The translations under genes and the position numbers were made by a program. Below, in pieces: positions 37,235-45,503 of a DNA stretch of 64,000 nt. This DNA is from Methylacidiphilum caldifontis (GTDB taxonomy: Bacteria > Verrucomicrobiota > Verrucomicrobiia > Methylacidiphilales > Methylacidiphilaceae). The stretch covers positions 310,001-374,000 of the forward strand of contig NZ_CP065957.1 in assembly GCF_017310505.1 (NCBI RefSeq), written 5' to 3'. Under the pieces are notes generated by a model. That model searched no databases. It was given only the letters and a program-made list of their open reading frames with translations, and was not told where the DNA came from. Within the stretch, counting starts at the first letter, position 1. Every line of letters starts with the position of its first letter.

Positions 37235-38131
37235 ATGAGTAAGAGAATCGGATTTGTAGGTGTGGGAAGAATGGGTGCAAATATGGCACGTCGTCTTCAT
37301 GATTTAAAATATCCGGTAACTGTTGTTTATGACGTTTATGAAAAAGCTGCTGAAGAACTAGCTAAAGAAATAGGAGCTGAAGCCTCTAAAAAGCTTGCAA
37401 GAGTAACTGAGCTTGCGGATGTGATTTTCACCGTAGTTTCCGATGATGCAGCAATGCACAAAATATTTGCAAAAAATGGTGACAGTCTTTTGATCAACGC
37501 AAAGGGCAGGATATTCATCAATACAGCCACGATTTCGCCTCAAACCCACATTGAAGTGGGCAAACTATGTGAAGAAGTTGGAGCTGAAGCTATAGAAGCC
37601 TGTATGGCTTCAAGTATTCCACAAGCCAGAAATGGTACTCTTTATTTTATGCTAGGAGGCAAACAAGAGGTTATTAAAGAAGTTGAACCCATTCTCAAAG
37701 ATATGTCCTCTTCCATGAGATATTGCGGGCCGCTAGGATCAGCAGCCAGGGTCAAAGCTCTTGTCAATATGGTCATGAACATTAATACTGCAGCATTGGC
37801 AGAAGGACTCGGGCTAGCAAAGGCCCTGAACCTTGATTTAAATATGATAAGAGAGGTTTTCTCACAAACTGGAGCAAATTCAAGGGTATTGCAAACTGAC
37901 GGAGAAGATATGCAAAATAGGGAACATACATGCTTTTTCTCTGCTGAACATGCCTTGAAAGATAGTGGTATAGCCCTTAATTTGGCAAAAGATGTGGGAT
38001 TAAATCTTCCTCTTGCTCAAGCTACCTATAACCAATATCAAAGGCTTGTGAAAAAGGGTTTTGGCCAACTCGATAAGTCAGCGATTTCCGAATTAACTTT
38101 CCCCGACCGTCATGGGTTGGATAAAGACTAA
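37235..38131 (+). CDS. NAD(P)-dependent beta-hydroxyacid dehydrogenase
   Basis: A 298-residue enzyme of the 3-hydroxyisobutyrate dehydrogenase / tartronate semialdehyde reductase superfamily. The N-terminal Rossmann motif GFVGVGRMGANMARRL and a substrate-binding region with SSIPQARNGTLYFMLGG are clear. The helix SAARVKALVNMVMNINTAALAEGLGLAKALNLD contains the conserved catalytic Lys. Possible reactions are glyoxylate, succinic or tartronate semialdehyde reduction, or 3-hydroxyisobutyrate oxidation. A GGAGCAAAG sequence precedes the ATG. A strong bidirectional terminator follows. Confidence 0.88.
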   Translation: MSKRIGFVGVGRMGANMARRLHDLKYPVTVVYDVYEKAAEELAKEIGAEASKKLARVTELADVIFTVVSDDAAMHKIFAKNGDSLLINAKGRIFINTATISPQTHIEVGKLCEEVGAEAIEACMASSIPQARNGTLYFMLGGKQEVIKEVEPILKDMSSSMRYCGPLGSAARVKALVNMVMNINTAALAEGLGLAKALNLDLNMIREVFSQTGANSRVLQTDGEDMQNREHTCFFSAEHALKDSGIALNLAKDVGLNLPLAQATYNQYQRLVKKGFGQLDKSAISELTFPDRHGLDKD

Positions 38132-38145
38132 AACGCAAAACAAAT

Positions 38146-38178
38146 AAAAAAAGGGGAAGGAATCCTTCCCCTTTTTTT
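38146..38178. terminator. Bidirectional rho-independent terminator
   Basis: GGGGAAGG (38153-38160) and CCTTCCCC (38164-38171) form an 8-base stem with a 3-base loop. The stem is flanked by A7 on the left and T7 on the right, so it can act in both directions. It lies between convergent genes (the hydroxyacid dehydrogenase and the pterin dehydratase). Confidence 0.9.
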
Positions 38179-38211
38179 ATGATTGCATTGAATTCAAAAG
38201 ATCAAAAAATC

Positions 38212-40897: not shown

Positions 40898-42733
40898 TTA
40901 TTCCAACGAAAAGACGTAGAGTTCGCCACCAATGGTCGTAGCCTTTGGAAGTCCAGCTTGATAAGCAACACCCACGGCTCCTAGACCGGCGTAGGGATCG
41001 TCAGGAGGTAAGTTCTGGGCTACAGCAATACCAAACCACCCACCGACTCCAGAGTAAACAGCTACGTACTGTTTCTTATCAGGTCCCAAGAATGTAATGG
41101 GGTTGCCAATAATTCCTGAACCAAGTTTTTGCTGCCAGAGCACTTTTCCTGTCTTTATATCCACTGCTTTAAACCATCCATCCATCGTTCCATAAAAGGC
41201 GAGTCCACCAGCCGTAACCACTGGACCACTCCAAACAGGAAAATGTTCATGGATTTCCCATACTCTCTTCCCCTTAAGAGCATCGTAGCAAATGAATGCA
41301 CCATAATAATCGTCTTTGCCTTCATGCCCTGAATACATAAGCACGTTGGCGCCAACGTAAGGGGCTCCTGCTGTGTAGGTCGCTTCTACCCCTTCATAGT
41401 TCATACACATATTGTTGGTCGGAACATAAAATAATCCTGTCTGTGGATTAAAAGCAGCAGGTTGTTGGTCTTTGCCACCCATGGAATTAGGACAAATACC
41501 TTTGGTATCAACACCCTGTTTCGTCCTTTTTTCAGGGATCTCAACGGGTCTATCATTTTCCTTGCTAATTTCTTTTGCCCAATTTTCATAGACAAAAGGC
41601 TGAGCTTCAATTAATTGACCCGTTCTTCTATCCAATACGTAACCAAAGCCGTTACGATCGAAATGAACAAGACAAGGGGTTTTCTTTCCCTTTACCGTTA
41701 AATCTGGAAGAATCATTTCGTTGATTCCATCATAATCCCAGGAATCCCATGGAGTCATCTGGTATGCCCAACGTGCTTTACCCGTATCGGGCCGTCTGGC
41801 TATAATAGAACAGGACCATTTATTGTCTCCCCCCTTTCTCTGCTCGGCATTCCAAGTACCTGGGTTACCTGTTCCATAATAGAAGAGATCAAGAGCAGGA
41901 TCATAGCTATACCATCCCCAAGTTGTTCCTCCTCCAAGCTTCCACTGCTCCCCAGGCCAAGTTTTCGTTCCATCGCCGGGTCCACCATGTTGGGGAAATT
42001 CCTTATTGAAATCGGAATCGATCAAAACTTCCTCATCTGGTCCCTGGCTATAAGCCAGCCAAACTCTATTGCCCGTATTGATATCATAGGCGCCCACTCT
42101 TCCTCTGACTCCAAATTCCCCACCAGATACTCCAACAAGTACCTTATCTTTGACAACCAAGGGTGCACCCGTAATCGTTTCCCCTTTAGTCACGTCCGCA
42201 TGCTTGGTTTTCCAAAGTTCTTTTCCTGTATTTGCATCAAGAGCAATTATCTGTCCATCAAGGGTAGCCAAAAAGAGCTTGCCATTGGCATAAGCCAGTC
42301 CCCTGTTGACTACGTCGCAACAAGCCACTGCTACTGCTTGGCTATTCTGAACAGGAGTATATTGCCACTTAATTGCATAGGGCTTTTGAGTCAAATCAAG
42401 GGCATAAACATGGTTGGGATAGGCTGAATGAACGTACATCGTCGATCCAACGACCAGCGGTCCACCTTCATGTCCACGCAAGGCCCCTGTTGAAAAGCTC
42501 CAAGCAAGACGCAATCGGGACACATTTTTCGTATTTATCTGGGTCAGCTCACTAAAACGGGTATTTGCATAATTTTTGTTTTGCATGACCCATTGAGCTG
42601 GATCTTTCTCAAGTTTAACGAGCTCATCATTCGCTTTTGTAACGGGTAAAGAACCTAATAAGCCAAAAGCCGCTAAAAAGGTGGCTTTCTTTGCCACGGA
42701 ATATCTTTTAGGCTTTTTTAATTTAACTGTCAT
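40898..42733 (-). CDS. xoxF: Lanthanide-dependent methanol dehydrogenase XoxF
   Basis: A 611-residue PQQ enzyme oxidising methanol in the periplasm. The signal peptide ends at about Ala34 (VTKA/NDEL). The vicinal disulfide is Cys138-Cys139 (VACCDVV). Metal ligands are Glu206 (GGEFG), Asn290 (YGTGN) and Asp333, with the diagnostic extra Asp335 of lanthanide-type enzymes in WDYDG; calcium-type MxaF has Ala there. These positions equal 172, 256, 299 and 301 in mature numbering, matching the Methylacidiphilum fumariolicum enzyme. PQQ-propeller tryptophan-docking motifs recur through the chain. A very strong ribosome-binding site precedes it, and an inverted repeat lies in its control region. Confidence 0.97.
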   Translation of the reverse strand: MTVKLKKPKRYSVAKKATFLAAFGLLGSLPVTKANDELVKLEKDPAQWVMQNKNYANTRFSELTQINTKNVSRLRLAWSFSTGALRGHEGGPLVVGSTMYVHSAYPNHVYALDLTQKPYAIKWQYTPVQNSQAVAVACCDVVNRGLAYANGKLFLATLDGQIIALDANTGKELWKTKHADVTKGETITGAPLVVKDKVLVGVSGGEFGVRGRVGAYDINTGNRVWLAYSQGPDEEVLIDSDFNKEFPQHGGPGDGTKTWPGEQWKLGGGTTWGWYSYDPALDLFYYGTGNPGTWNAEQRKGGDNKWSCSIIARRPDTGKARWAYQMTPWDSWDYDGINEMILPDLTVKGKKTPCLVHFDRNGFGYVLDRRTGQLIEAQPFVYENWAKEISKENDRPVEIPEKRTKQGVDTKGICPNSMGGKDQQPAAFNPQTGLFYVPTNNMCMNYEGVEATYTAGAPYVGANVLMYSGHEGKDDYYGAFICYDALKGKRVWEIHEHFPVWSGPVVTAGGLAFYGTMDGWFKAVDIKTGKVLWQQKLGSGIIGNPITFLGPDKKQYVAVYSGVGGWFGIAVAQNLPPDDPYAGLGAVGVAYQAGLPKATTIGGELYVFSLE

Positions 42734-42738
42734 CGCTT

Positions 42739-42746
42739 CCTCCTTT
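42739..42746 (-). promoter_or_regulatory. Strong xoxF ribosome-binding site
   Basis: The minus strand reads AAAGGAGG five bases before the xoxF ATG. This near-perfect Shine-Dalgarno stands out because most genes in the window have weak sites or none, and it fits a highly translated enzyme. Confidence 0.85.
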
Positions 42747-42817
42747 ATTTATTCTATGGTGCCTTCCATTTACCACTCTTGTGATCTAAGTCAATAACAA
42801 ATGTAATAATTTTTGTT

Positions 42818-42840
42818 GACAGATTAAAAAGTAATCTGTC
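42818..42840. promoter_or_regulatory. Perfect inverted repeat in the xoxF/MFS divergent region
   Basis: GACAGATTA at 42818-42826 and TAATCTGTC at 42832-42840 are perfect 9-base arms with a 5-base spacer. The centre is about 96 bases from the xoxF start and 85 bases from the exporter start. On the minus strand the downstream arm ends in CTGTCA, which can be read as a -35 with TGTTAT 17 bases further (weak). An operator for a dimeric regulator controlling xoxF and/or the exporter is the simplest reading; function is inferred. Confidence 0.6.
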
Positions 42841-42895
42841 TTGCCGTTATTATTCGCCTTATTCACTTGAGTGTTTTTATTAGCATTATCACTTA

Positions 42896-42901
42896 TATAA
42901 T
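42896..42901 (+). promoter_or_regulatory. -10 box of the MFS gene, nearly leaderless transcript
   Basis: A perfect TATAAT lies only 12 bases before the ATG at 42914, so transcription would begin about six bases before the start codon. There is no room for a Shine-Dalgarno sequence. No good -35 is visible. Confidence 0.5.
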
Positions 42902-42913
42902 TTTTAACATAAA

Positions 42914-44131
42914 ATGAAGCTTTTTTTTCGAACAGATTTATTTAATTGCCAATCTTTTAAAATCGCTTTTTGGGGACAATCTGTTTCTTTTATTGGAAGT
43001 TGGATACATTTAGTGGGTTTAAGTTGGCTCGCTTTCCAGCTTACTCGTTCACCCTTGGGCCTCGGTTTGGTTGGTTTTTCCTCCACTATTCCTTCTTTTT
43101 TATTTTCTTTTCTTTCAGGTATAACAGCCGACAAATTCTCCAGGCTTAAAATCCTGGTAATAAGCCAATTTGCTAATTTTCTTCTTTCCTTTTTACTGGG
43201 TTTATTGAGTACTTTAAAGGTAGTCAATTTCTATGAAGTCCTTATTCTCTCCTTTGGGATGGGTATTTTCAGCAATATGGAACTTCCCTCAAGGCAGGCT
43301 CTGTTTCTTTCTTTTTTACCCGATACAGAGTTAAAAAGAGCCATCGCCATAAATGGACTTCTTTTCAACTTGGCAAAATTGATTGGTCCAGCAGCCGCAG
43401 CCTTTCTTATTCCTCTTTATGGCTCCTCGATCTGTTTTTTTATAAACAGTCTCTCTTATGGAGTATCCATTCTTTCTTTCATCATCGCTTCGTCTAAAAA
43501 TCAAAAGAAGGAAAAAACCATTTCCAAATCAAACTTAAAAAAAAGTTTTTTCTCACTCATTGCAAATCCTCTTATTTCTTATCCAGCCCTACTTCTGGGC
43601 ATTGTTACTCTTTTTGGTTGGTCCTACTCTGTTCTTCTTCCCTATGTTTCTTCACACATCTACAATAAGGGCTCCCAAGGGTTGTCCTTATTCTACAGTG
43701 CAAGCGGCCTAGGAGCTATTATCGCCACATTGATTATAACTTTTTATCCCAACCTCTTTAGCTCCTTAAAACTTAGGCAAATCTCCATTATTATTTTCTG
43801 CCTTTGCCTTTTTCTTTTCTCCTTTTTCCCTCCCTTTTATATTTCTCTTTTTCTTATTACGTTATTAGGCTTTGGTCTTTCCCTTTTTATAGCGGCAACA
43901 ACCATGATTCTCCAGGAAAGAATTGCTGGGGAGTCAAGAGGAATGGTTTTTGGCCTAAGTTCTTTCTTTTTTCAGGGTTTTTTTGGCTTTGGCAATCTTC
44001 TAATGGGAACAGTTGCTCAATTTGCGGGTGTAAGATTAAGTCTTTTGCTCAGCTCAATCATCTGTTTTGTTGCCTTTTTATTTTTTGAACGTCCAATTCG
44101 AATCCAAAAACAAACTCTACCCATAAACTAA
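42914..44131 (+). CDS. MFS exporter, EntS-like
   Basis: A 405-residue protein with about twelve hydrophobic segments and a long basic central loop (about 195-210, SKNQKKEKTISKSNLKK). The N-terminal pattern FKIAFWGQSVSFIGSWIHLVGLSWLAFQLTRSPLGLGLVGF and FLSGITADKFSRLKILVISQ is typical of the EntS/MFS_3 group that includes enterobactin exporters and macrolide-type efflux pumps. It is divergent from xoxF across 180 bases containing a perfect inverted repeat. A role in exporting a metal-binding small molecule is possible but speculative; no biosynthesis genes are nearby. Confidence 0.82.
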   Translation: MKLFFRTDLFNCQSFKIAFWGQSVSFIGSWIHLVGLSWLAFQLTRSPLGLGLVGFSSTIPSFLFSFLSGITADKFSRLKILVISQFANFLLSFLLGLLSTLKVVNFYEVLILSFGMGIFSNMELPSRQALFLSFLPDTELKRAIAINGLLFNLAKLIGPAAAAFLIPLYGSSICFFINSLSYGVSILSFIIASSKNQKKEKTISKSNLKKSFFSLIANPLISYPALLLGIVTLFGWSYSVLLPYVSSHIYNKGSQGLSLFYSASGLGAIIATLIITFYPNLFSSLKLRQISIIIFCLCLFLFSFFPPFYISLFLITLLGFGLSLFIAATTMILQERIAGESRGMVFGLSSFFFQGFFGFGNLLMGTVAQFAGVRLSLLLSSIICFVAFLFFERPIRIQKQTLPIN

Positions 44132-45062: not shown

Positions 45063-45070
45063 AATATATC

Positions 45071-45477
45071 CCGAGGGGTATGCCGCCACTCGACTTTTAG
45101 GCTCTATAAGTCGAGAGGAAAGTCCGGACTCTATAAGGCAGCGATCCACTGGAAACAGTGGGCTTGGATGAGCAAAAGCCTTCCAAGACGGAGAGTGTCA
45201 CAGAAAACATACCGCTTAACAGTTATCGTTAAGCAAGGGTGAAAAGGCGGGGTAAGAGCCCACCGCATGAATGGTAACATTCATGGCAGGAAAAACCCAT
45301 CGCAGAGCAAGGCCAAGCAGGGACATGGGTTGCCTTACCCATCTCATCAAAGCATGATGAGAACTCCCAGGTAGGCCGCACCGCTTTGCCAAAAGCGGAT
45401 CCCTTTAAAGTACAGGGATAGACAGATGGCGGCAAGTCCAGTATCCTGGACTACAGAATCCGGCTTATTCCCCTCGG
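45071..45477 (+). ncRNA. rnpB: RNase P RNA, bacterial class A
   Basis: A 407-base RNA read from conserved elements. The P1 arms CCGAGGGG (45071-45078) and CCCCTCGG (45470-45477) pair perfectly. GAGGAAAGTCCGGACTC, starting near 45115, is the universal conserved region at the P3/P4 side, ACAGAAA lies near 45200, and ACAGAATCCGGCTTA near 45453 is the conserved 3' region. Purine-rich GGTAGGCCGCACC near 45371 also fits. A short T-run after the last arm suggests termination there. The RNA matures tRNA 5' ends with the RnpA protein. Confidence 0.96.
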
Positions 45478-45503
45478 TATTTTTATAGATTGACTTTAAA
45501 AAC

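Follow-up and report, generated by a model that had tools for sequence, protein, structure and literature searches.

In Proteobacteria, lanthanide-responsive control of xoxF is exerted by the MxbDM/MxcQE, MxaYB and PedS2R2 systems. The region upstream of xoxF in Methylacidiphilum caldifontis is likewise the promoter of a lanthanide-dependent methanol dehydrogenase, but xoxF in this genome is the only gene of its type, with no second, mxaF-like copy, so there is no pair of Ca- and Ln-dependent methanol dehydrogenases to switch between. Nor is a regulator of the NarL/LuxR type (GerE profile) encoded in the window, by which we mean the whole 64,000-nt stretch of DNA that was analysed; the four GerE domains found in the genome lie elsewhere. 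An initial sequence-only reading had remarked that regulators of the known proteobacterial type are not visible here, which holds for the GerE profile, and had raised lanthanide-responsive control, for which nothing in the locus points to a switch.

The available portions of published accounts include a SolV gene annotated as mxaB of the NarL family (PMC3404531), strain Kam1 described as being without MxaF (PMC6688271), two xoxF copies in Methylacidimicrobium thermophilum AP8, one of them expressed 85-fold less (PMC7907005), and Verrucomicrobiota with only XoxF2, except for four Methylacidimicrobium genomes (PMC12482762); none of these accounts demonstrates that lanthanides control the present promoter. 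Control of methanol dehydrogenase in verrucomicrobial methanotrophs appears to be little studied; among the matches listed in a literature search, none bore a title indicating work on the xoxF promoter or on transcription starts in Methylacidiphilum, and the one paper in which Methylacidiphilum and transcription start sites both occur deals with Methylosinus.

The second type of system with which the locus can be compared is the bidirectional promoter region in which regulatory sites are shared. The likeness lies in the head-to-head genes, the short gap and the conserved blocks at both presumed promoters and between them, whereas the difference is that the xoxF-MFS order is common to five Methylacidiphilum genomes and seven genomes of a sister genus (G006-G012), which we take to be Methylacidimicrobium, but the motifs are not.

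The xoxF gene and a gene encoding an MFS transporter are divergent and separated by a gap of 180 bp (42734-42913; G+C 29 %), which contains a perfect inverted repeat:

40898-42733, minus strand: xoxF, a PQQ methanol/ethanol-type dehydrogenase (TIGR03075, 680 bits)
42914-44131, plus strand: MFS transporter gene (MFS_3/MFS_1)
42818-42840, no strand assigned: perfect inverted repeat GACAGATTA-N5-TAATCTGTC, of which only the outer GACA/TGTC is common to all five Methylacidiphilum genomes

The gene families originally named for this locus, xoxF and MFS, agree with the profile matches; all NCBIfam matches of the MFS product (e.g. TIGR00900, EntS) were below their cut-offs. The genes 3' of xoxF encode a binding protein of the MoxJ type and a protein that combines a cytochrome part with a second part weakly resembling MoxJ; an xoxFJG:J operon of this kind is reported for strains Kam1, SolV and V4 in the available portion of PMC6688271. 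Two other features of the window were noted in passing. An RNase P RNA (bacterial class A) is located at 45070-45482, with the HAD gene on one side and the molybdate transport genes on the other, and an inverted repeat at 38144-38180, with perfect 18-bp arms, a single spacer base and A/T runs at either end, is likely to be a bidirectional terminator between two convergent genes, which end at 38131 and 38212.

Conservation was assessed in five Methylacidiphilum genomes, G000 (the genome studied here) to G004; since G001, G003 and G004 are nearly identical in the gap, these represent effectively about three lineages. The order xoxF<>MFS-HAD was retained in all four congeners. In the sister genus, the MFS gene was divergent from a xoxF in seven of seven genomes and the HAD gene was seen in five, the remaining two contigs breaking off inside the MFS gene or shortly beyond it; no MFS match was found in the stretch taken from a further relative, G005. 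In the sister genus, the xoxF that neighbours the MFS gene (L033-L035) shows no adjoining xoxJ or xoxGJ match, and a second, more distant xoxF of G006 (L039) has an adjoining xoxJ and cytochrome match.

The gap itself was strongly conserved, with 143 of 183 alignment columns invariant in the five genomes, compared with 59/290 for the xoxF-xoxJ gap, 15/111 for the MFS-HAD gap (the ends of both being set by tblastn matches and approximate by a few codons) and 656/1218 for the MFS coding sequence. The modA-fdhD gap (28/668 columns) was left out as a baseline, G004 being a length outlier. The 180 nt upstream of four sets of pmoC genes, paired as orthologues by order alone and with a fifth copy in G004 and fragments in G001 excluded, contained 28-56 % invariant columns (81/207 and 55/197 with five genomes; 109/196 and 73/187 with four), whilst the xoxF gap aligned with four genomes contained 146/183. 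The runs of 8 or more invariant bases in the five-genome alignment, together with the elements recognized in or near them and the least conserved stretch, were as follows:

42734-42744, minus strand: AGGAGGAAGCG, invariant, presumed ribosome binding site of xoxF
42751-42779, minus strand: AGAGTGGTAAATGGAAGGCACCATAGAAT, invariant block, presumed promoter/leader of xoxF
42767-42772, minus strand: TAAATG, candidate weak -10 of xoxF, 16 nt after TTGACT and missed by the consensus scan
42772-42784, minus strand: copy of TCACNWGAGTGNT on the xoxF side, within what is presumed to be the -35/-10 spacer
42787-42802, minus strand: ATTTGTTATTGACTTA, invariant, with the -35-like TTGACT (42789-42794) for xoxF
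42816-42823, minus strand: TCTGTCAA, invariant, comprising the outer bases of the repeat's right arm (in the sense of xoxF) plus flank
42842-42857, no strand assigned: least conserved stretch of the gap, adjoining the MFS-side end of the repeat, with 4 invariant positions out of 16
42858-42878, plus strand: CTTATTCACTTGAGTGTTTTT, invariant, including the MFS-side copy of TCACNWGAGTGNT (42863-42875)
42881-42905, plus strand: invariant block; its TATAAT (42896-42901) is presumed to be the -10 of the MFS gene and stands 12 nt ahead of the ATG

The most strongly conserved blocks resemble two promoters, which TTGACT/TAAATG and TATAAT are presumed to mark; a sigma-70 consensus scan returned two sites against 1.3 in shuffles, which is not above chance. 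TTGACTTA also occurs upstream of xoxF in G005. No ribosome binding site is visible for the MFS gene, whose putative -10 lies so close to the ATG in a block invariant in five genomes, and its transcript is perhaps leaderless or nearly so.

Head-to-head genes with a short gap, kept in relatives, are what a bidirectional promoter region would present, and we regard the 180-bp gap as a bidirectional promoter region with predicted promoters and an upstream dyad, under strong purifying selection in Methylacidiphilum, with a probability of roughly 55 %. The strong conservation of the gap and the presence of the same divergent exporter in all four congeners support the original interpretation. Against it, the repeat to which it drew attention was less conserved than either whole flank: 15 of its 23 bases (65 %) were invariant, versus 87 % of the 84 bases towards xoxF and 75 % of the 73 towards the MFS gene. 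The repeat belongs to the poorly conserved centre of the gap.

The existence of the repeat was confirmed: GACAGATTA-AAAAG-TAATCTGTC has exact 9-base arms and a 5-base spacer. The gap was dinucleotide-shuffled 3000 times, and 22 of the shuffled sequences held a perfect inverted repeat of 9 bp or longer with a spacer of up to 5, 40 held one with up to 10 and 74 one with up to 20; in the whole window, 14 such repeats (spacer up to 20) were observed versus 7-13 in 10 shuffles. The repeat is therefore mildly unusual for an AT-rich gap and ordinary across the window. A search of the whole genome (2.25 Mb), as the sequence-only reading had proposed, returned the copy in the gap as its sole match when up to three mismatches were allowed.

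None of the four congeners possessed the perfect repeat in its gap, an absence from related xoxF upstream regions that had been named beforehand as evidence against it and that applies to the perfect form. A shorter core, AGACA...TCTGTCAA, was common to all five genomes with variable spacing, AGACA and TCTGTCAA both being invariant (5/5). Counted contiguously from the outside, the dyad had 9 pairs in G000 and 5, 4, 5 and 5 bp in G001 to G004, so that the outer four pairs were kept in all five genomes and the outer five in four, and its length was 23, 23, 25, 22 and 22 nt, respectively. The inner four pairs were broken in the congeners, save for one column pair. Better pairing in the congeners was obtained in a different register (AGACAGC/GTTGTCT or AGACAA/TTGTCT), in which G000 was the sole sequence to break two pairs. 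A dyad of some kind persists at the site, and the perfect form is seen only in G000 among the five genomes. Neither GACAG...CTGTC (spacers 5-20) nor TCAC..GAGTG was found in the seven sister-genus gaps or in the 400 bases upstream of xoxF in G005; among the seven gaps, that of G006 contained an unrelated 8-bp repeat.

A hairpin at the site was predicted preferentially on the xoxF strand, where the lowest-energy 36-nt window fell at the repeat site in 5/5 genomes (-8.7 to -10.5 kcal/mol), compared with 2/5 on the MFS strand. Shuffled gaps reached energies as low in 3, 10, 40, 11 and 8 of 200 cases for G000 to G004, G002 being weak. The 117 nt that reach from the repeat up to xoxF folded with z = -3.4. 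No pair changed on both sides in the register originally proposed, and covariation in the congeners' register was not significant (110 of 500 shuffles were as good). In the consensus fold, GTCAA of TCTGTCAA was paired with TTGAC of the -35-like element, and this pairing may be another reason, unrelated to the repeat, for the conservation of TCTGTCAA. A scan of 42600-43050 for intrinsic terminators, which have a G+C-rich stem with a T run behind it, found none at the repeat, the single site (42681-42697) lying inside xoxF, and the only Rfam matches at gathering scores in the whole window were RNase P and a tRNA.

Under the reading of the gap as a conserved bidirectional promoter, the repeat would have a presumed promoter on either side, with 23 bp separating it from the downstream -35-like element of xoxF, and selection would keep a short dyad core, AGACA...TCTGTCAA, with a variable spacer. 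This core would most likely be contacted, upstream of the promoter, by a DNA-binding protein or by RNA polymerase acting on xoxF; both the binding of protein by the core and the action on xoxF are what we infer from its position and conservation. The perfect 9-bp pairing would then be a form of the core seen only in G000, which chance has probably elaborated, rather than the operator itself. The conserved bidirectional promoter is a better object of study than the perfect repeat, and the footprint of conservation in the gap offers short testable targets, of which it suggests the perfect repeat is not the best.

The alternative that survives best, though we think it unlikely, is that the repeat is a functionless chance feature in the spacer between two promoters. 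Its membership of the least conserved part of the gap fits this explanation, as does the near-expected number of such repeats in the window, but chance would not account readily for TCTGTCAA and AGACA being kept in all five genomes, or for a hairpin-capable site at this position in each of them.

Somewhat more doubtful is the proposal of the sequence-only reading that a different, verrucomicrobial regulator has its operator in the perfect repeat, here taken as a dedicated dimeric regulator of xoxF and the MFS gene with a site diverging fast between species. The low frequency of a 9-bp dyad in shuffled gaps (22/3000) and the presence of some dyad at this position in each of the five genomes are consistent with it. 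A palindromic operator would be expected to keep its palindrome at orthologous promoters, yet the perfect 9-bp form was present in 1/5 genomes and a 5-bp core in 4/5, G002 retaining 4 bp; half-site spacing would be fixed, yet the dyads varied from 22 to 25 nt, a difference of up to 3 bp, and the congeners paired better in another register; and copies would be expected at other promoters, where none with up to three mismatches was found in G000, a result that a single-site regulator would fit too. In its perfect form the proposal fails the test named beforehand, the repeat being absent from the gaps of all four congeners; the variable spacing of the core and the lack of a regulon also go against it.

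The searches for a regulon can be summarized briefly. The relaxed core gave 17 matches in the five genomes versus 26 for a control pattern, so there was no excess. Thirteen relaxed GACAG...CTGTC matches lay away from xoxF, and of the 11 with loci, which were examined, nine were located in stop-free frames of at least 94 codons. A genome-wide regulon of the repeat was rejected, there being no further copies with up to three mismatches and relaxed matches not exceeding the control. A search with the half-site TTGTCTGTCAAYRAAAA (up to three mismatches) was uninformative, the control being about equal to the matches in each genome among the matches listed.

Least probable of all is a structured leader RNA. 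Transcription of xoxF would in this case begin ahead of the repeat, and a regulatory 5' leader would include the hairpin (9 bp in G000, AGACAGC/GTTGTCT or AGACAA/TTGTCT in the congeners). The strand bias of the hairpin and the fold of the 117-nt stretch accord with it, but neither register showed significant covariation, Rfam had no match at the site, and the -35-like TTGACT, which is also present in G005, is situated downstream of the repeat.

Returning to the bidirectional promoter, TCACNWGAGTGNT was present in both presumed promoters, each copy in the sense direction of its own gene. The pattern TCACNWGAGTG had 11 matches in the five genomes, 10 of them in the xoxF/MFS gap and one elsewhere, whilst the reversed control had four in all; the pattern was built from the two gap sites, so that both match by construction, and the informative part is the single match outside the gap. 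An inverted pair as good was found in 15-73 of 300 shuffled gaps (10-, 11- and 13-mers; three genomes). Given this origin of the pattern and the frequency of equally good pairs in shuffled gaps, the twin pair is only suggestive and is treated as a lead. One speculative and rather improbable extension is that a dedicated verrucomicrobial regulator binds the twin sites, and possibly the dyad between them, coupling the expression of xoxF to that of the MFS exporter, which would perhaps carry PQQ, a metal chelator or a by-product of methanol oxidation.

The comparison with pmoC upstream regions also brought to light a block, TTACGGTTGCCATAGAAGTTCGGTTGGC / TTACGGTTGCCATGAACATTCGAGTTAGC, shared by two of them (G000:C1:2152018 and 2155514; L154 and L157) and conserved in the aligned congeners. 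A GerE-type regulator domain is encoded at 2151305-2151472, just upstream of the first of these regions (2152018), and shared control of the two methane monooxygenase operons is possible.
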